DNA of 64,000 nt, from contig JAIXYN010000069.1 of the NCBI GenBank assembly GCA_027490195.1, positions 1 to 64,000 of the forward strand. The letters run 5' to 3'. This DNA is from Verrucomicrobiaceae bacterium (GTDB lineage: Bacteria; Verrucomicrobiota; Verrucomicrobiia; Verrucomicrobiales; Verrucomicrobiaceae). The translations under genes were made by a program, and so were the position numbers. Below, piece by piece: positions 5,870-18,888 of the stretch; within the stretch, counting starts at the first letter, position 1; each line of letters begins with the position of its first letter. A model generated the notes under the pieces. That model was not told the DNA's origin and ran no database searches. It saw only the letters and a list, made by a program, of their open reading frames with translations.

Positions 5870-6671
5870 GATGAAGAGCGATGTCTGTGTGAATGCAACG
5901 AACGGGTGCGGCCATGACAATGACGGCGGCCTTCCGTGCGGTGTGGTTTGGGGAAATGTAGGGGGGAGAGAAGCGGCATTGCCGCGGTGAGTCTCTGCAG
6001 GAATGACGGCTGCGCAGCGAGTGCGGAGTCGCGTTTCATCAGCGCAAAGGCCGGGGAAACTTCGGCAATCCTGCCGGGAACAACACCAAGTGTTCACCAA
6101 GTTGAGAGAACTTGGAACGGATGAAGTGTGCGGGATGCCGGGGCAGGATGCAAGGGTTTTTTTTTCGAGGGGGACAGGGGAGTGCAAAAGGGCAGAGAAC
6201 GAGCGGTGGCACGACATCGGCATTCGACGAGGCCGCAGCGTCAAGCAGCCTGCACATTCAATGAGCAGTGGCCCATGCACTGATTTTCGGTGGGCGTGAG
6301 GTTTGGCGGCATGCTGGGTTTGCTTTCAGGTGGCGATGGCCGGGACCCAGGGGCGCACTCACCAAGGCTCGGCGGCCCTTGGGCTGCATGACGTAGCTTC
6401 GTTGGGGCTGGTGTTTGGCGGAGTGGGGTGAGCGGAAGTTGGCGTTAGGTGACAATGAGAATCGACGCGGTGAGCGTTGAACGTTGAACGAAGAGATTTG
6501 GACTCTTTGCTTCTGGGTTTTTCGTTGGGGTGGGTGTTGGCGGAGTGGGAGAATCGAGGACGAACTCTGAAAGGGAGGTATTCTTCATCAAGGTTGTGAA
6601 GCGAGCCCCGAACGACGAGCCGGACTTTGAACATTGCTGCAGACGACAAGATTTGGGATTGAGGGGCGTAT

Positions 6672-8093
6672 GTGTGGGGCATGGGGTTGCTTTCCAGTCG
6701 CCGTGATTTGCTCAGTGCTTCGAGTGCTGGGTTTGGGATGCTGGCGCTGCGGGGATTGTTTGGGGCGAATGCGCAAGCGGGGGCGGCGGCGAGGATGAAT
6801 CCGCTGATGCCGGTGCAGACGCATTTTCCTGCAAGGGCGAAGCGGGTGATCTTTTTGTTTATGCAGGGCGGGCCATCTCAGGTGGACACGTTTGACTACA
6901 AGCCGGCGCTGTCGAAGCAGCAGGGGGTGCCGAATGCGAAGGGGAGCACGAATGTGTATTACCAGTCGCCGTGGGAGTTCAAGGCGCGGGGGCAGAGCGG
7001 GATGCTGATTTCGGATCTGCTGCCGAACATCGCGCGGCATGCGGATGACTTGTGTGTGATCAATTCGATGCACACGGACCACAATGCGCATCCGCAGGCG
7101 ATCCTGCAGATGAACACGGGGAGCTTTGCGTTTACGCGGCCGAGTGTGGGCTCGTGGTGTGTGTATGGGCTGGGCACGGAGAATCAAAACCTGCCGGGGT
7201 TTGTGACGATCAATCCGTCATTCTCGGGCGGCGGTCCGCTGAAGCATGGCTGTGCTTTTTTACCGGCGGTGTGCGGCGGGACGCCGATCGGTCAGGACAG
7301 TGGGAATGGATCGAGTCCGGGATTTCCGGCGACGCCGCTGAAGGACATTGAGCTGCCGTTCATGAAGAATGCGCGGCTGGATGTGAGGGCGCAACGGCGG
7401 CAACTGGATCTGGTGCAGTCGCTGAACCGGCAGAGGCTGGCGCAGGATGGGAGCAACGAAGCGCTGGAGGGATTGATCACGTCTGCGGAGCTGGCCTTCA
7501 ATATGCAGCGCGAGATGCCGGAGGTGATGAACCTGAACCGTGAGAGCCAGGCGACGCAGGAGATGTACGGGATTGGCGATGGGAAGATGACGGACCAGAT
7601 CGGGCGCGCGTGCCTGATGGCGCGGCGGTTTGCGGAGGCGGGTGTGAGGTTCATCCAGGTGAATCACGAGTTCTGGGATGATCACACGGACATTTTCAAG
7701 GGGCACCCGCAGCATGCGCTGGAGACGGATCAGCCGGTGGCGGCGCTGCTGACGGATCTGAAGCAGCGCGGGCTGCTGGAGGATACGCTGGTGCTGTGGG
7801 GCGGTGAGTTTGGAAGGCCGCCGCTGCTGAACAAGAACAACGGGCGGGATCATGATCACCTGGGCTTCACGATGTGGATGGCGGGTGGGGGATCGAAGCC
7901 GGGGATTCGCTATGGGAGCACGGATGAAACGGGCTTCAAAGCGGAGCAGGACAAGGTGCATCTGCATGATCTGCATGCGACGATGCTGCACCTGCTGGGG
8001 CTGAACCATGAGCGGCTGACGTATCGCTATGCAGGACGGGACTTTCGGCTGACGGACGTGTTTGGGGAGGTGAAGCGGGGCTTGCTGGCGTGA
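6672..8093 (+). CDS. DUF1501 domain-containing protein with Tat-like leader
   Basis: SRRDLLSASSAGFGMLALRGLF leader; RVIFLFMQGGPSQVDTFDYKP; VLWGGEFGRPP; GRDHDHLGFTMWMAGGG. Confidence 0.93.
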   Translation: MWGMGLLSSRRDLLSASSAGFGMLALRGLFGANAQAGAAARMNPLMPVQTHFPARAKRVIFLFMQGGPSQVDTFDYKPALSKQQGVPNAKGSTNVYYQSPWEFKARGQSGMLISDLLPNIARHADDLCVINSMHTDHNAHPQAILQMNTGSFAFTRPSVGSWCVYGLGTENQNLPGFVTINPSFSGGGPLKHGCAFLPAVCGGTPIGQDSGNGSSPGFPATPLKDIELPFMKNARLDVRAQRRQLDLVQSLNRQRLAQDGSNEALEGLITSAELAFNMQREMPEVMNLNRESQATQEMYGIGDGKMTDQIGRACLMARRFAEAGVRFIQVNHEFWDDHTDIFKGHPQHALETDQPVAALLTDLKQRGLLEDTLVLWGGEFGRPPLLNKNNGRDHDHLGFTMWMAGGGSKPGIRYGSTDETGFKAEQDKVHLHDLHATMLHLLGLNHERLTYRYAGRDFRLTDVFGEVKRGLLA

Positions 8094-8350: not shown

Positions 8351-10789
8351 ATGATCCGTTCCGTTTTCAGCCTCTCAGCCATCTTCGTCTCCAGCCTTGG
8401 CCTTGCCGTCCGCGCAGCCGAGCCGTTGGACGCCTTCCTGGAGAAGCACTGCATCAGCTGTCATGGCCCCAAAAAGGAGAAGGGTGACCTGCGGATCGAC
8501 CAGCTTTCGCGCGATTTTAAGCTGGGTACGGACACCCATCATTGGGCGGAGATGGTTGAACAGGTGAATTCGGGCGAGATGCCCCCGAAAAAAGAGAAGC
8601 AACCGACGCAGGAGGAGATCGCGGCGTTTGTCACGAGTCTCGATTCGCGGATCAAGGAGGGCCGTGCAGCGCGGATGGCGGCGCGGCCAGCGGTGTCGCA
8701 TTACCGGCTGAGCCGGAAGGAGTATCAAAACACGGTCTATGACCTGCTCGGCGTACGATACGATCCGGCTAAGCCGGGAGAGCTGAATGAAGACACTCTG
8801 TGGCATGGTTTTGAGCGCATGGGATCGGAGCTGTCGCTTTCGCCATCGCATGTGGATCGCTATTACCGTGCGGCAGAGCTCGTGCTCGATCGCGCCTTTC
8901 CCCTCGCCGCATCCGTGGAAGCTCGCAAAGTTATCAGGACTGCTGCCGATCTCCGCTACAGCGGAGGAAAGACCCAGCAGGAGGCCCTGGACCGGTTCGG
9001 CATCAAACGGCCTCTGCGCTACCTGCTCTTCCCCGGCACCGTTCAGAATGCTTTCTCGCCCGAGTGGCTGGGGAAACCCGGGCCACAACAGAGCGGGCTC
9101 TATCGCATGCGTTTGCAAGCCAGCGGCATCCGCCCGCTCGATGGTCAGCCGGCCCACCTGAGCATAGGCAAGGTGACGGGTGAGGAGACCGTCGCGGGCC
9201 TGATCGAGTTTGACATCACGGCCCCGGAGGACAAACCGCAGGTTTACGAGTTCGAGGTGTTCCTTGAGATGCCGACGGTGCTGCACTTCTGCGTGGTGGC
9301 CACTGATGTGGTGGACCGAAGGAGCGGCGCGGCCTTCCGCAATGCTCTTGGAAGCAGGGGAGGGTATATTTTTACGCATAGCAGCGAGACACTTCTCTTG
9401 AATCCGAACGCCCCGCAGATGTTCGATGACAAAGGGAACGGCATCTTCTCGACGGTGCTCCTCGATTGGATCGAATGGGAAGGGCCACTGGAGACGGAGG
9501 CAGAAAAGTCCCGGCGCAAAGGTCTGGTACCTCCTGATGACGCGACACCTGAAGTGGTAGCTGAGCATCTGCAACGCTTTGCTGAACGCGCCTGGCGGCG
9601 TCCGGTCAAGCAGGAGGAACTGGAGGATTATTTGAAATCCTACCGCACTGAACGCGAGGCGGGCGAAAAAATGGCCGAGGCCTATCGCGTGGCGATGCAG
9701 GGCGTGCTGACCTCCCGAAACTTCATTTACCTCGTCGAGGGCGAGCCAACGGCCCGCGAGCGTCTGACCGACTGGGAACTCGCCTCAAGGCTCTCCTATT
9801 TTTTGTGGAGTTCTATGCCGGATGACGCCCTCTTCACCGCAGCCAAAGGCGGCAGCTTGAACGGCGAAGGATTGAAGAAGGAGGTTGACCGGTTGTTGAC
9901 CGACAGCCGCATCAACCGCTTCATCGACGACTTCTCCAGGCAGTGGCTGCAGCTGCACCGCGTGGGCATGTTCCCACCAGACAAGAAGCTTTATCCCAAC
10001 TACGACCTCTGGCTTGAGACAAGCATGCGCGCTGAGCCTGTGGAGTTTTTCCGTGAGATGCTCGTCAAGAATTTGCCCATGGCTAGCTTCCTTGATTCCA
10101 ACTGGACCATGGCCAATGCGCGGCTCTGCGATTTCTACGGACTGCCGGAGCCCAAGGCAGACGGTTTCCAACGCGTCTCGCTCAAGCCCGAGGACCATCG
10201 CGGCGGTCTGCTCACCATGGGGGCGGCGCTCGGGCTGACTTCTGACGGTACGCGCCACCGTCCGGTGCACCGTGGTGTCTGGCTCAGCGAAGTGATTCTG
10301 GGCAAGACGCCCCCGCCGCCCCCGGCCAACGTGCCCGCCATCGAACCCAATCCGCCGAAAAGCGCCAAGGCAACCCTCCGTGACAAACTGGAGGCGCACC
10401 GCAATGACGCGAACTGTGCCGCCTGCCACGCGAAGATCGATCCGCTCGGTTTGGCCTGGGACAACTACGATGCCATTGGGCAATGGCGCATTCGTGAGAA
10501 GGTCCCGGAGGGAGTCGGTGAGGACCCTTTGATCAGTCCCGCCGGCCTGATGCCCGACGGCCGTCCCTTCAAGGATGCCAGCGATTTCAAGCGCCTCTTG
10601 ATCGATGACCACGATAAATTTGTGCGCGCCTTCATCGAACACCTTTGCACCTACGGCCTCCGCCGCGTGCTGACCGTTGATGACGAAGACGACATCAAGG
10701 TCATCGCGGCAGAGGCGAAGAAAAACCAATACGGGGTCAAGGATATCGTCCGTGCTGTGGCGATGTCTGAACTGATGAGGAAGCGCTAA
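8351..10789 (+). CDS. DUF1592 domain-containing protein with planctomycete-type cytochrome c motif
   Basis: Signal peptide from [18 protein letters not shown] heme motif; [35 protein letters not shown]; second [22 protein letters not shown] motif. Confidence 0.92.
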
Positions 10790-10816
10790 CAAGACCCCGC
10801 TAGGCATCGTCATTCC

Positions 10817-13426
10817 ATGAGCGTTCAATTTCGTCATCTCGCCTTCGCCTTCCTTCTGCTCAAAGGAACTTTGTTGCGCGCTGAACTCTCTGCAAACTCA
10901 GCCGTCAGCGCCGTGCTGCCGCTTTCCTTCATCGAAAAGCACTGCGCGGACTGCCATGACGAGACCACGAAGAAAGGCGATTTCAGGGTGGACTTGTTGG
11001 GCAAGAATCTCACGGACTCGGCGAGTCATAAGGCATGGAGTCGGGTGCTCGCGCGGGTGGAAAGCGGCGAGATGCCTCCCCCAAAAAAAGAGCGCCCCGC
11101 AGAGGAGGATATCCTCGCGGCGCTCGGAGCACTGAAGAGCGCCTTTCACAAAGATGCACTGGCCAATTACGGTGAAACCGGCCGCGTGCGTGTGCGCCGT
11201 CTCAACCGGCTCGAATACGAAAACACCGTGCGCGACCTGCTCGGCATCGACACGCCGCTGCGGGATCTTTTGCCGGAGGATGACCTGCGCGATGGTTTTA
11301 GCAATCAAACGGCAGCGCTGAGCATCTCGCCGGTCCACATTCAGCAATACATGGCAGCGGCGGATCGCGCGCTCGAAGCGGCTAGCGTCCGCCAGGCTAA
11401 GCCAGAGACCAAAATGCATCGTTTTGCCTTCAATCATGAGGCAGAGAAGCCTTGGTCCGCCTACGCTCACAACCGGTTGCAGTGCAACCTGCATGGCGAG
11501 GATCTGCACTTCTTCCTCGACACCCACATCGAGGTGCCCGTTGCCTTGCGCCAGTTCGAAGCGGTGACACGTGAAACACCAGGCACGTTTCGCATTCGCA
11601 TCACCACGGAAGCGCTCGACACCACAGGCGGCGAGGATCTCATTTACAGCGTGTGGCTCGCTTCGGGTGGCAAGCGACGCGAGTTGCTCGGCCACTTCGA
11701 CGCGAAGCATCGCCAACAGAGCGTGGTCGAGCTGACGCGTTCCTTCGACCGCGGGGAGACCCTCATCATTGCGCCCTATCGCATGGCCAAGGTGCGCATC
11801 GACGCCGGTTACAGCGTCTATGCGCCGGACAAGGTGGAGAAGATGCCCAAAGGCTGGCATTTCATCAACAATCCCAATCCACCTATTGCAACGGTGGGGC
11901 CTGCCATTGTGGTGAAGCCCTTGGAGATCACTGGTCCGCTGATCGAGAGCTGGCCGACACCAGGACACCGGCTGCTCTACGGCGACCAAGCGGAACTCGC
12001 CCCCACCGCTGAGGTCGCGAAAACGGCGCGGGTGCCGGATTCGATCCTCCGCCCCGTGCGGGCGTATCGGCAACTGAAGGATACCGTCACCGTCCGGCTA
12101 CCGGCGGAAAAATCGGAAGCGTCCATTCGCGAGGCGCTCACCCGATTCGTCGGCCGCGCGTTCCGCCGTCCTGCGACTGTCGAGGAGGTCGAGCTTTACC
12201 ACGCGATGACCCGCGACCGCCTCGCCAAGGGCGAATGTCTCGAAGTGGCGCTCAATGCCGCGCACCGTGCCGTGCTCTGCTCGCCGGAGTTTCTTTTCCT
12301 CGTCGAGCAGGGGCCGAGATTGAACAGCCACGAACTGGCCGCGCGCCTCTCCTATTTTCTGTGGCGAACTGCTCCCGACGACGGGCTGCGCAAGCTCGCG
12401 GAAAAGGGCGAGTTGACCAAACACGAAGTGCTGCGCAAACAAGCAGCCCGATTGATCGCCTCGCCGCGGTTCGATGCCTTCGTTACTGACTTTCTCGCTC
12501 AATGGCTCAACCTGCGCGAAATCGACGCCACCACGCCGGACCGCGATCTTTTTCCCGAGTATTTTGAAAGCATCGGAGACGGTCGGCAGGATGTGTTTCT
12601 GCATGACTCGCTGGTCGGGGAGACGCGCACCTATTTCCGCGATCTCGTGGAGCGTGATCTCGGCGCGGCGATGCTTGTTTCGGCACCATACGCCTATCTC
12701 AATCAACGTTTGGCTGAGCACTACGAACTGCCGCCAGTGAAAGGCGCTGCCCTGCGACGCATCACTTTGCCCGCTGACAGTGTGCGCGGTGGATTGCTCA
12801 CGCAGGCGAGCATTCTGAAGGTCACAGCCAATGGCGCGAATACTTCGCCCGTGCTGCGCGGCGTGTGGCTGCTAGAGAGGATCGTAGGCACGCCTGCTCC
12901 GCCTCCGCCGCCAAATGTCGGAGCCATCGAGCCCGACACGCGGGGTGCGACCACCGTCCGCGAGCAACTAGCCAAGCACCAGTCGGTGAAGACCTGCGCA
13001 GGTTGCCATCAGAAGATCGATCCACCTGGTTTCGTGCTCGAAGCCTTTGATCCCATAGGGCGCTATCGCGAGTACTACCGCACCACCGAGACGGGTGAGA
13101 AGCTCAAAGATCTGAAGGCCTTCTTCGGGGCCCACTACGGCCATGTCAAATACCTCAAGGGTGCCACGGTGGACACGCGAAGCCAGCTGCCTGGCGGGGT
13201 CGAAGTCGCCGACGTCCGCGCCTACAAGGCGGTGCTCGCCACACGACCCGAACTGCTCGCGCGCAACTTCGTCCGCAAACTCGCCACCTTTGCCACTGGC
13301 GTGCACACGGAGGCTGGCGATGAACTCGTCATCGATGACATATTGAAAAAAACCAAGGCGTCCGGCTTTGGACTGCGCACGCTGATTCACGAAGTCGTGC
13401 AGAGCGAACTTTTCACCCAGAAATAA
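10817..13426 (+). CDS. DUF1592 domain-containing protein with planctomycete-type cytochrome c motif (second copy)
   Basis: CADCH; RRLNRLEYENTVRDLLGID; ELAARLSYFLWRTAPDD; CAGCHQKIDPPGFVLEAFDPIGRYR. Confidence 0.92.
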   Translation: MSVQFRHLAFAFLLLKGTLLRAELSANSAVSAVLPLSFIEKHCADCHDETTKKGDFRVDLLGKNLTDSASHKAWSRVLARVESGEMPPPKKERPAEEDILAALGALKSAFHKDALANYGETGRVRVRRLNRLEYENTVRDLLGIDTPLRDLLPEDDLRDGFSNQTAALSISPVHIQQYMAAADRALEAASVRQAKPETKMHRFAFNHEAEKPWSAYAHNRLQCNLHGEDLHFFLDTHIEVPVALRQFEAVTRETPGTFRIRITTEALDTTGGEDLIYSVWLASGGKRRELLGHFDAKHRQQSVVELTRSFDRGETLIIAPYRMAKVRIDAGYSVYAPDKVEKMPKGWHFINNPNPPIATVGPAIVVKPLEITGPLIESWPTPGHRLLYGDQAELAPTAEVAKTARVPDSILRPVRAYRQLKDTVTVRLPAEKSEASIREALTRFVGRAFRRPATVEEVELYHAMTRDRLAKGECLEVALNAAHRAVLCSPEFLFLVEQGPRLNSHELAARLSYFLWRTAPDDGLRKLAEKGELTKHEVLRKQAARLIASPRFDAFVTDFLAQWLNLREIDATTPDRDLFPEYFESIGDGRQDVFLHDSLVGETRTYFRDLVERDLGAAMLVSAPYAYLNQRLAEHYELPPVKGAALRRITLPADSVRGGLLTQASILKVTANGANTSPVLRGVWLLERIVGTPAPPPPPNVGAIEPDTRGATTVREQLAKHQSVKTCAGCHQKIDPPGFVLEAFDPIGRYREYYRTTETGEKLKDLKAFFGAHYGHVKYLKGATVDTRSQLPGGVEVADVRAYKAVLATRPELLARNFVRKLATFATGVHTEAGDELVIDDILKKTKASGFGLRTLIHEVVQSELFTQK

Positions 13427-13433
13427 GCATTGT

Positions 13434-14747
13434 ATGAAACCGATCTCACGCCGCCTCTTCCTGCGAAACTCCGGCATCGCCCTTGGTTTACCGATGCTCG
13501 AGTCCATGCTGCCAGCGGGCCGTCTCGCGGCTGCTCCTGCCTCTGCGCCCCGCCGCATGGTGTGTATCGGCGTGCCCTTCGGCTTCGATCCCACGGCCTT
13601 CGTGCCCAGCACCACTGGCCGTGATTACACGCTGCCTGCGCACCTCACGCAGCTTGCGGCCTTTCGCGATGACTTCACGGTGATCAGTGGCCTGAGCCAT
13701 CCCAACACTGGCGGTGGTGGACACAAGGCGGAGGCTGTCATGCTCACTGGCGCGCCTTATCCCGATTACTCGTACAATTTGAAAAACACCATCTCGGTGG
13801 ATCAGGCCTTTGCTGCCAAGTTTCGCGGTGAGACCCGCTACGAGAGCTTCGCCTTGACCACGCAAGGCGGTTCGCTCTCCGTCACTGCCAATGGCGTTAC
13901 CATTCCCGCCATCGACCGGCCCTCGGCAGTCTTCAAGAAGCTCTTCCTCGCTGCCACTCCCGCCGAGATGGATGTCGAGATGCGCCGCATTGATGAAGGT
14001 CGCAGCATGCTCGATTTCGTGGGTGATCGCGCCAAGAGGCTCAATCGCCAGATCAGCAGTGCCGACCGCCAACGCGTCGAGGAATACTTTGAATCCGTCC
14101 GCGACGTGGAACGTCAGCTCCAGATGGCCCGTGAGTGGGTGAATCGCCCAAAGCCCAAGGCCATCGGCAGCGAACCCAAAGACATCGGCGACAACCAGCA
14201 GCAAAAGGCGAAGTTTCAGCTCATGATCGACATGATCCACCTCGCATTGGTTACCGACTCGACCCGCGCTGTGAGCCTCATGACCTTCGGCATGCATCAC
14301 GACCTCTCCCATCACGGCAAAGAGCCGAAAAAGCTCGCTGCGTGCCGCCAAGTCGAGGTGGAACTCATCCAGGCCTTTGGCGGCCTGCTTGGAAAGCTGA
14401 AGAGCGCCAAAGAAGGTGCCACCACTCTGCTCGACTCCACCATGGTCATGATGACCAGTAACCTGCGCGATGGAAACACCCACTGGACCTACAACCTGCC
14501 CGCCATACTCGCTGGCGGCGGCTTCCGCCACGGCCAGCACCTCGCCTTCAACCAACCCTATCTCGATGAAGTGAAGCTGGAACTCAACGCAACAGATGGG
14601 AAGAAGATCAATCCCGAGAAAAAGATCCCCCTCATGGGCAAGGACCAACAACCGCTCTGCAATCTCTACACTTCGATGCTGCGAAAAAGCGGCGTTGAAA
14701 TCGAGCGCTTCAGCACCGCTACGGGGCCGCTGGAGGGGCTTGCATAG
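13434..14747 (+). CDS. DUF1552 domain-containing protein, Tat-type leader
   Basis: [83 protein letters not shown]. Confidence 0.92.
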
Positions 14748-14809
14748 TGAACAAATGCTCCATCACTCCATCCCCCTGTACGACCACTAATCACGAACCA
14801 AGCACCTCT

Positions 14810-16183
14810 ATGAACATCCAAACCCAATCCTGGCTCATCAACCGCCGCCACGCCCTCAAGGCGTTTGGCTCCTTTATCTCGCTGCCGCTGCTGGAATGCA
14901 TGGTGCCGCTGCGTGGGGCGGAGAAGGTCACGGCGACGCCGAAGCGCAGTGCTTTTATCTATCTGGCGAACGGCGTGCATTCGCTGAACTACCAGATCAC
15001 CACGCCAGGGAAGGACTACAAGTTCTCCCGTTCGCTCATGCCGCTGGAGAAGCACCGCCAGGTCATCACGCCCATCAGCGGTCTGCATCATCCAGGAAGC
15101 CTGAGTCATCACCACAACTGCATCAGCGTTTGGCTGACCGGCGGCAAGCTTGGTCCTTCGGATCGCAACACGATCTCCGTGGACCAAAAGATGGCCGAGA
15201 TCACCGCGCAGCACACGCGCTACCCATCGCTGGAGGTCGCCATCACTCAGGAATCTCTCGCCTGGACTGCGGACGGGGTTCGGCTGCCCGCGTTGCGCCG
15301 CTGCAGCGAGATCTTCTCGTCCATGTTTGCGGAACCGAAAGGCGGCGTCGCAGCCCAGCACCGGGCCTTGCGCCGCAAGGGCAGCGTGCTGGATGACAAC
15401 CTCGCCGAAGTGCGGCGGCTGGAGAAAAAAATGGGCTCTGAGGACAAAGGGCGCATGGATCAATACCTTACCTCCGTCCGCGAAGCAGAGATCCGCACAC
15501 GGCGGGCCGATGCGTGGCTCGATACGCCGCTGCCCGTCATCTCCGAGGCTGATCGTCAAAAGACCAATCGAGACATCGCTGACACCAAGGCGGGTGATTA
15601 TTTCCGGACGGTCTATGACCTCATGGTGCTGGCGTTTCAGACGGATGTGACACGCGTGGCCACCTTCAGCTTGGGTGGCGAAGGCCAGGCCATTGCCATT
15701 CCTGAAATCGGCATCACGGAGTCGCGTCATCAACTCAGCCACCACGGCGGCGATCTGGGCTACATGGAAAAGCTCACCAACTACGACACCTTCGCCATCG
15801 AGCAGTTCAGCTACTTCCTCACCCGGCTTGCGGAGACCAAGGACCTCAATGGCAACACGTTGCTCGGCTCCACCATGGCACTCTTCGGCAGCGGCATGTC
15901 TTATGGCCATAGCCATGGCAACGCCAATCTCCCGCTGGTGCTCGCCGGCGGCTCGGATCTGGGGCTGAAGCACGGTCAGCACCTGGATTTCAACCAGTCG
16001 GCCGCAGGATTCCAAGGCTACGCGCTCGGCGCAGACGGGGCGCTGACTTCCGCCCACTACCAGCTCTGCAGCCGCCCCGCGAACACGGACGCCCACATGA
16101 GCAACCTGCTCCTCCTCATGGCCCAGCGCATGGGCGTGGAGATAGACACGTTTGCGGACAGCAACAAGGTGATCGCACTATGA
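14810..16183 (+). CDS. DUF1552 domain-containing protein (second copy), Tat-type leader
   Basis: [77 protein letters not shown]. Confidence 0.92.
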
Positions 16184-17442
16184 AAAGGTTCTTCGTTCTT
16201 GGTTCTTATTTGTGCATTCTTGGTTTTTGCGCTTCCGACGCAACTGCCGCAGACGAGCCCTTCCGTCCTGAGGCGGGGAAGTTTCCCCCTCTTGAAAAAG
16301 CGCATTCCTACCGGGGTGAACTCGTCTTTGTGGACCATGCGAACCGCCGGGGTAGCCTGCGTGTGGCAGGGGCGGGGACGTATTTCCGCAATGCCCCGCA
16401 CCCTTTCGCTATGCTACCTTATGGTATCGTTCGCTATCACGGAGCACCGGCGGATCTCCGGGACATTCCGCTCGGAACCGTGATGCACGTTCGTGCCTTT
16501 CTTCCCCCGGACCCCAAGGTCTCCGCAGTGCCGGTTTTGCCGTTTGATAACAAGGATAAGATTGCGGGCTACAGTGGCACCGGTGTGGCTCCGGCTGAGA
16601 ACCACGTTCTGCTGCTTGAGGATGAGCCCAGCCACTGCCTGCGCGAAGGATTGGTCTGGAAACTCAAGGAACTGGAGATCAAGAACAGCGAGGGGATGAT
16701 CATCGCCAGTTGCGTACCCAAGGCTGGCGCAGATGGCAAGGCCAGCGAGAAAAAGCTGACCTTCGACGCCGCCACCACCATCTGGCGCGGGCGTGAACGC
16801 CTTGGGATCGCCGACTTGATCGCGGAGGGCATCTGGCCCGCCAGCGGGAAGAAATCGCTCGAAGGCCAGGTCGTCCAACTCGGGATTACCTGGAAGCCCA
16901 CGCCCGATGGTGTGTTCACCCGCTTCCACATCTCGGACATTTGGTTGGACGAGACGGCCACGCAGCGCGCCGCTCAAATTCAAACCGAGGTTCACAAGGC
17001 CTTCATCCGCAGCCGCTGGATGCCAGCCTGGGTGGATGCCGTGGAGTATGGCAAGTTCGGTCGCGCCACCGTGACCGCGACTTTGTTTGGCGGAATGAAC
17101 GCCTCTCTCTACGCGGATTTCCAGAAAGGCGGCCAGGTCCTGATGAACGGGGCCGAGAATACCCTGAAGCATGCAGGCGGCGGCTATGGCCCCGCGCACA
17201 TGGCCTCCAAAGGCGCTGTCCTCGATGTGACGAAGGTTTCTGGAGAAGCTCCTCTGGGCAGCAGCGGTATTCAGATCCGCTTTGAGACGGACCTCGTCAT
17301 CGAAGGCATTCGTGCTGCGCGAGTCGTCCGCGTCCGTCCTGCGGGCTGGCCTCAGGTGCAAGTGCCCCGGGAGGAATACGTGGGCGATGGCTCTGGTGCT
17401 GAGGACCGTTTCCCGACTCCGGTCATCTTTCCCAAGTACTGA
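16180..17442 (+). CDS. exported protein of unknown function, paralog 1 (translationally coupled to DUF1552 gene)
   Basis: Signal peptide [28 protein letters not shown] overlap with preceding stop; highly similar to the next gene. Confidence 0.85.
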
Positions 17443-17515
17443 TCTCTTCACTCTCTTGGTTCTTTGTCGGCCCGAAATACGCCGAATCGGGAGCAAAGAC
17501 CCAAGAACATGGACC

Positions 17516-18775
17516 ATGAAACTCACTCTTCTCAGCGCCTTTTTGGGCGTGCTCACCATCACCGCACCTGCTGCAGACGAGCCGTTCCGGCCTGTGGCGG
17601 GGAAGTTTCCCTCTGTGGAAAAAGCGCACTCCTATCGGGGAGAACTGGTGTTTGTGGACCATGCGAACCGCCGGGGCAGCCTGCGCGTGCAAGGGGTGGG
17701 CACGTTTCGCCGGAATGATCCGCAGCCTTTCGCCATGCTGCCTTATGGCATCATTCGGTATCACGGGGAACCGGCGGATCTCCGGGACATCCCGCTCGGC
17801 ACCGTGATGCACGTCCGGGCCTTTCTTCCCCCGGACCCCAAGATCTCCGCCGTGCCGGTGCTGCCGGTCAACAACAAGGACAAAGACATGGACCACAATC
17901 GGGGCTCCGGTGTTGCCCCCGCCGAGAATCATGTTCTCCTGCTTGAAGACGAGCCTAGCCACTGCCTGCGCGAGGGCAAAGTCTGGAAACTGAAGGAAGT
18001 GGACCTCAAGAACAACGAGGGAATGATCATCGCCAGTCGCGAACCCAAAGCAGGCGGAGACGGCAAGGCCAGAGAGGAAAATCTGACCTTGGATGCAGCC
18101 ACTCGCATCTGGCGTGGTCGCGAATGCCTCACGCCCGAAGAACTCGTCGCCGAGGGCATCTGGCCGGCCAGCGGTAAGAAATTGCTCGGTGGTCAGGCCG
18201 TCCTGCTGGGGATTATGTGGAAGCCTACACCCGGCGGTGTGTTCACCCGCTTCCATATCTCGGACATCTGGCTGGACGACGCCGCCATGCAACGCGCCGC
18301 GCATAACCAAACCGAGGCGCACAAGGTTTTCATTCGCAACCGCTGGATGCCCGCATGGGTGGATGCCGTCGAGTATGGCAAGTTTGGTCGCGCCACAGTG
18401 ACCGTGACTCTGTTTGGCGGCATGGACCCCACACTCTACGCCGATTTCAAGAAGGGCATACAGGCTCTGATGAATGGAGCTGAAAACACGCTGAAGCATA
18501 CCGAAGGGGGCACTGCTGGACCCGCGCAAATGGCGGCCCGAGGCTCCATCCTCGAAGTCACGAAGATACCCGGAGACGTCCCTATGGGCAGCAGTGGCAT
18601 CCAGATCCGTTTTGACACGGATCTCATCACCGAAGGCATGCGACCCACCCGAATCGTCCGCATCCGTCCTGCGGACTGGCCTGACGTCCACATGCCGCGT
18701 GAGGAGTACCTCAACGGAGGGAGCGTTAGCCTTGAAGATCGCTTTCCGACGCCAGCCATCTTTCCGAAGTACTGA
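17516..18775 (+). CDS. exported protein of unknown function, paralog 2
   Basis: [58 protein letters not shown]; near co-linear with paralog 1 to the shared C-terminus DRFPTP(V/A)IFPKY. Confidence 0.87.
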
Positions 18776-18888
18776 TGCTTCTTGGTTCCTCGTTGTCCAG
18801 AGAGACGCCGAACTGCGTGCCCCTGGATCAATCTGGCAGCAGGTGCTGTGCTGGCGCATTTCAATGATTGATGCTAACTTGCCGCTTT

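Follow-up and report, generated by a model that had tools for sequence, protein, structure and literature searches.

Six genes at the locus

The window (the whole 64,000-nucleotide stretch of DNA that was analysed) contains six co-directional genes from 8351 to 18775, all on the plus strand and separated in order by 27, 7, 59, -4 (an ATGA overlap) and 73 bp. We use C for DUF1592-type di-heme proteins, H for DUF1552 proteins and G for an unnamed family; other L and G numbers are our handles for loci and genomes.

8351..10789, +, C1, core operon gene 1: predicted exported di-heme DUF1592-type protein, 812 aa (Pfam); homologues with 72–93% identity head the core operon; G-type clade
10817..13426, +, C2, inserted G-less pair: DUF1592-type protein, 869 aa (Pfam); 32% identical to C1; clusters with the C proteins of G-less pairs; genome G067 has a 94% match at the equivalent site
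13434..14747, +, H2, inserted G-less pair: DUF1552 protein with RR leader, 437 aa (Pfam); outside the G-adjacent clade; 4 of the 68 family genomes have a close homologue
14807..16183, +, H1, core operon gene 2: DUF1552 protein with RR leader, 458 aa (Pfam); homologues with 79–97% identity lie directly 5' of G; in the G-adjacent clade
16180..17442, +, G5, core operon gene 3: exported protein of the unnamed family, 420 aa; no match in Pfam, NCBIfam or PADLOC; family present in two phyla; 4 bp overlap with H1
17516..18775, +, G6, core operon gene 4: anciently diverged second G paralog, 419 aa; 75% identical to G5; nearer to the G proteins of other species than to G5
17454..17506, +, predicted hairpin in the G5–G6 gap: RNA fold -24.3 kcal/mol, z -2.2; arms carry TTGGTTC-type repeats, with matches at 17456 and 17491

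The initial annotation had described this gene order with its small gaps, two CxxCH motifs per DUF1592 protein (CISCH and CAACH in C1, CADCH and CAGCH in C2), RR leaders on both DUF1552 proteins, and two final exported proteins of no recognised family, and all of this was recovered, the last two proteins having Sec-type leaders. Both C1 and C2 carry the complete domain set PSCyt1-PSD3-PSD5-PSD4-PSCyt3-PSD2 in this order (best E 9e-42 and 3e-37); PSCyt1 is N-terminal, and the scores lie above every curated Pfam cut-off for PSD3, PSD5, PSD4, PSCyt3 and PSD2. DUF1552 (HXXSHH, PF07586) is matched by H1 at 276.6 bits (E 4e-82) and by H2 at 236.9 bits (E 5e-70), against a cut-off of 30. A DUF1501 gene on the same strand (6672-8093), about 250 bp upstream of 8351, is separate from the operon, and its product has a sub-threshold Sulfatase match (E 0.046). 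The downstream neighbour, from 18889, is a DPP-IV-like peptidase gene. Promoter and terminator scans gave no signal beyond chance. The source bacterium is Prosthecobacter-like, its nearest public relative (L015) being labelled Prosthecobacter sp., with RF1 98% and rho 92–94% identical.

Genes of the C and H types are common in this genome, which has 34 PSCyt3 and 33 DUF1552 matches; hence the G family, and not the C/H pair, is the unusual feature of the locus. In Verrucomicrobia metagenome-assembled genomes (MAGs), PSCyt2 plus PSCyt3 genes are described as usually adjoining two unknown gene families whose function is not known (PMC5615132). C1/H1 and C2/H2 share the domain set and the neighbour relation of the 'planctomycete-specific' PSCyt3 cytochrome genes, as far as the relevant passages of that paper describe them. 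A third, G family is not described in those passages, whereas here G is tied to one clade of the pair. Nor was a description of the G family found in the literature passages on these genes, which come from main texts, mostly of non-subscription journals. PSCyt3 and DUF1552 genes, with some thirty copies each in this genome, have no known function.

G as the companion of one C/H clade

With G5 as query, a collection of 84,980 genomes yielded 200 related stretches. The best 80 went into the neighbourhood survey that had been set beforehand as the refutation test. G homologues do adjoin DUF1552/DUF1592 genes elsewhere. All of the best 80 of 200 loci are from Verrucomicrobiota and Planctomycetota, save one record labelled Klebsiella. 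The C-H-G order recurs among them with one to four G copies each, H directly precedes G in most, and H-G stop/start overlaps are repeated; the H gene is absent only from loci whose sequence stretch starts at the G genes. This recurrence in the best 80 of 200 loci indicates that the arrangement is more than chance. In these loci, identity to the window is 72–93% for C1 and 79–97% for H1, and it is 62–86% for G (78-row alignment). The Klebsiella record (L064, CALQJI020000032.1, titled as a Klebsiella pneumoniae MAG) has the operon, and its DUF1552 protein groups with those of Verrucomicrobiota; it is probably a mislabelled bin.

The association extends to more distant G homologues of the same family that were read in context: DUF1552 lies close by in 15 of 15 loci and a PSCyt3 gene lies upstream in 14, the exception being L142, which has no PSCyt3 ORF in the available stretch. 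Other genes separate H from G in L134 and in L138 to L142. In a tree of 49 DUF1552 proteins, labelled by gene position and not by sequence (L142 and one L144 row, with a larger gap, were labelled by hand), a branch with support 100/99, recovered in 100% of bootstraps, separates all 29 G-adjacent proteins from the 20 G-less ones, among which H2 falls. The C tree matches this split; the closest C of L138 is an inserted copy, and its true C partner lies further upstream (L179). Among the 33 DUF1552 proteins of its own genome, H1 is nearest to the one at C63:106237-107565 (50% identical, next 37%), which likewise has a G neighbour; these two, nearest to each other, are the two with G beside them. 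That G is a dedicated third component of one C/H clade is well supported, and the proposal that the 16180/17516 family is a dedicated DUF1592/DUF1552 companion is borne out by the 80 loci, the 15 distant loci and the division of the DUF1552 tree by G.

The chance adjacency of six genes that do not act jointly is very improbable. DUF1592/DUF1552 genes are common in this genome and C2-H2 is of a separate, G-less type, as such a reading would expect, but the C-H-G order is conserved in two phyla, G is confined to one C/H clade and H-G stop/start overlaps recur, so that for C1-H1-G the survey speaks strongly against it.

The G family itself comprises old types that have been kept distinct, as in multi-copy loci the best match lies in another locus for 107 of 107 G copies; a recent tandem duplication of G5 and G6 (75% identity) is ruled out by the same result. 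Profiles of three G segments (d1, 38-135; d2, 140-262; d3, 276-395) show reordering in distant members, with d1-d3-d1-d2 in L139, L140 and L142 (and in L141, except that the second d1 is unscored) and d1-d2-d3-d1-d2 in L138. The three segments have no significant mutual alignment, which gives no support to an internal repeat of a single domain type. Searches of G5 and G6 against Pfam, NCBIfam and PADLOC gave no match, Pfam matches among 78 G members were at chance level only, and a sequence search against the PDB found nothing. The G5 model (pLDDT 72, pTM 0.70) is mostly beta and looks as if it contains OB-like barrels, judging by eye from the strand order of the model, although the fold search against the PDB gave no credible match, to OB folds or otherwise. 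MHC-like fold matches were discarded (TM about 0.1), as was an anti-phage defence role (no PADLOC match), and G5 had no plasmid match that would point to plasmid carriage.

A G-less pair nested in the core operon

The initial annotation had taken the two DUF1592/DUF1552 sets to be a doubled pair. This does not hold: C1/H1 is the conserved core, and C2/H2 is a rarely shared G-less pair. The 32% identity and the separate clades rule out a recent duplication. C(8351)-H(14807)-G(16180)-G(17516) forms the old core, and C2-H2 (10817-14747) belongs to the G-less branch and is nested between C and H. Adjacency of C1 and H1 is the usual state, with a C-H gap of 10–172 bp in 41 of 66 complete loci.

Of the 68 genomes in the window's family, only 4 have a close H2 homologue. 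Genome G067 has the same arrangement as the window, with C2 94% and H2 98% identical, but C1 only 81% and H1 88%. Genome G068, apparently the genome of L041, has a 97% match, and L042 also has C2-H2 (85%). A different G-less pair is nested at the same C-H site in L085 and in G072 (L138/L179); in G076 and G077 such a pair directly precedes C1 on its upstream side. C2-H2 thus has a separate history, yet the joining of G-type and G-less systems occurred more than once.

Conserved residues and structure of C and H

All 43 canonical C proteins retain Met77 and the two CxxCH motifs. Across all C proteins the second CxxCH, H683, R480, D491, R514, W532, E562, Y596, R641 and W644 are kept in 56 of 56; several G-less C ORFs are N-terminally trimmed, and hence no loss of the N-terminal heme is claimed for them. 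The conserved CxxCH motifs predict that the C proteins are di-heme. In H, D126, H308, H312 and H370 are invariant in 49 of 49, which would suggest a candidate metal site.

Sequence searches found no solved homologue of C or H in the PDB. Like DUF1552, DUF1501 (PF07394) is an exported partner of planctomycete cytochromes, and the C-terminal part of H resembles it over 73 columns of a profile match (E 2.5e-6, probability 88.7). The two are nevertheless separate Pfam families, and only 1 of 49 DUF1552 proteins gives a marginal DUF1501 match (E 0.39). The conserved His/Asp set of H is also a likeness to the sulfatase/alkaline-phosphatase superfamily, although a direct sequence match of DUF1552 was absent in the PDB and among Pfam superfamily profiles. 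The C1 model (pLDDT 81, pTM 0.76) has no global match in the PDB, but its beta-sandwich between PSD3 and PSD5 repeatedly gave weak fold matches to CBM6, CBM35 and CBM4 (E 0.04–0.15), with no match to Pfam CBM models.

A 3-keto-disaccharide hydrolase gene lies near one distant relative, and carbohydrate genes are scattered near distant relatives. Downstream of the canonical operon, the most frequent neighbours are proteins with leucine-rich repeats (LRR) rather than carbohydrate genes. LRR_14 matches were seen in 11 of 34 same-strand genes just downstream (for example, L021, L031, L044 and L072), and in L139 an LRR gene (6148-7149) sits between DUF1552 and G, with similar ORFs in L140 and L141. 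An LRR protein is a possible optional fourth component.

Spread across two phyla

Within the window's family, 57 of 68 genomes carry the G family. It was also found in at least 7 of 289 sampled Verrucomicrobiota and in at least 20 of 244 sampled Planctomycetota, both minimum figures since scoring was limited to six or seven candidates from each genome. Across 42 cross-phylum pairs, identity is 43–51% for RF1, compared with 72–80% for C, 82–88% for H and 74–81% for G; rho is 43–50% identical to that of Planctomycetes. In the H1 tree most Verrucomicrobiota fall within Planctomycetota, with many weak inner forks and unreliable MAG labels. Horizontal transfer between the phyla would be the likeliest explanation for both the high core identity and the patchy distribution.

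The alternative, in which strong functional constraint and vertical descent keep the identity high across phyla, is less likely, although it accounts for one feature of the data. Identities plateau while RF1 varies, and L029 and L033 have 99% identical RF1 but only 81% identical C, as if a fast-varying minority of sites had saturated on a fixed core. The patchy distribution of the G family and the nesting of most Verrucomicrobiota within Planctomycetota in the H1 tree speak against this account.

Proposed function

From the invariant residues of C and H, the likeness of H to DUF1501 and the CBM-like fold matches we infer an oxidoreductase in C, a metalloenzyme in H and a binding or scaffold role for G. 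Tentatively, and with rather less than even confidence, we propose that C1-H1-G5-G6 is a four-gene operon for an extracytoplasmic oxidoreductase whose substrate would be a carbohydrate or substituted glycan. In this proposal the parts of the C/H/G set would act together as follows. The site of action is probably periplasmic. C1 would be a Sec-exported di-heme protein. Catalysis would probably take place in its C-terminal heme domain (CAACH, H683 and the other invariant residues named above), while its N-terminal cytochrome-c-like domain (CISCH, Met77) would hand electrons to the respiratory chain. H1 would be a Tat-exported, probably metal-dependent enzyme that acts on the same substrate as C1 or on its product, a distant relative of DUF1501 and perhaps of the alkaline-phosphatase/sulfatase superfamily. 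G5 and G6 may serve as accessory subunits with non-redundant roles, binding to C1/H1 or presenting the substrate. Carbohydrate is the likeliest substrate, a guess based on the weak CBM fold matches, the CBM domains that some PSCyt proteins bear according to passages of PMC5615132, and the 3-keto-disaccharide hydrolase gene near one distant relative. C2-H2 would be a second, G-less system of a similar general kind, captured between C1 and H1. The multi-component complex and the polymeric substrate suggested in the initial annotation are conjectural, the hints to a substrate being the weak CBM-like match of the C1 model and the scattered carbohydrate genes.

We also considered an electron-transfer or surface complex in place of a catabolic enzyme, in which C would be a conduit and H and G structural or scaffold parts. 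The modular G proteins without enzyme-like matches, the high cross-phylum identity and the frequent LRR neighbours (a domain type often used for binding) are in line with it, but there are just two hemes per C protein, the invariant Arg, Asp, Glu, Trp and Tyr residues around the second heme domain appear catalytic and H has an invariant His/Asp set, which together make such a complex unlikely. Somewhat less likely still is an enzyme role in detoxification or stress, such as one involving peroxide or metals, instead of glycan catabolism. The di-heme architecture fits a peroxidase-like role, yet the NCBIfam match of C1 to di-heme cytochrome c peroxidase is weak (E 0.035), at 13 bits against a cut-off of 150, and stress genes do not recur next to the operon. 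A passage of PMC2754498 names a secreted DUF1552 gene of Rhodopirellula baltica as one of those responding to stress, but that gene may lie outside the G-adjacent clade.

Returning to the oxidoreductase, we see an evenly balanced case for a broader claim, namely that one DUF1592/DUF1552 clade and the modular G, often as two or more distinct paralogs, form an undescribed three-component class of extracytoplasmic heme enzymes that spread horizontally between Planctomycetota and Verrucomicrobiota and can take up a second pair within the operon. G marks one clade among the roughly 30 PSCyt3/DUF1552 copies of this genome and gives it a small, fixed set of partners. An unannotated family thereby gains a testable role beside DUF1552 and PSCyt3, which have resisted annotation. 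The C/H/G set is present in genomes of cultured strains (Verrucomicrobium sp., Stieleria and Limnoglobus roseus), which makes an experimental project feasible.

Insertions and repeats at operon junctions

The C-H junction appears to be a hotspot for insertions. An extra ORF lies in the C-H gap in 23 of 66 complete loci, including L081, L090, L082, L029, L077, L026, L072, L067, L061 and L078, and L021, L084, L039, L060, L027 and L088. Of the small inserts, four were checked and encode PF05635, the four-helix 23S rRNA intervening-sequence protein, and a further six are similar to the insert of L027, which is PF13366 (PDDEXK_3). Complementary repeats are found at both ends of the inserts, and the 317 bp C-H gap of L015 holds an apparent decayed insert copy. 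In the window's own genome a PF13366 gene (L133:2313-3140, on C63) lies between PSCyt3 and DUF1552 of a G-less pair, indicating that the insertion habit extends beyond the G-type operon.

Across the window's own genome as a whole, the junction-repeat motif does not stand out, with 5 matches compared with 10 for a reversed control. Within 1.3 Mb of loci, GGTTCTT/AAGAACC-type repeats cluster at operon junctions, where 90 of 106 matches fall in approximately 5% of the DNA, with none at the operon start. Repeat-bearing junctions include those of L081, L090, L029, L082 and others, and in the window (16185-16212, 17456-17504 and 18775-18795) all seven loose matches lie at these three junctions, against an expected 1.15.
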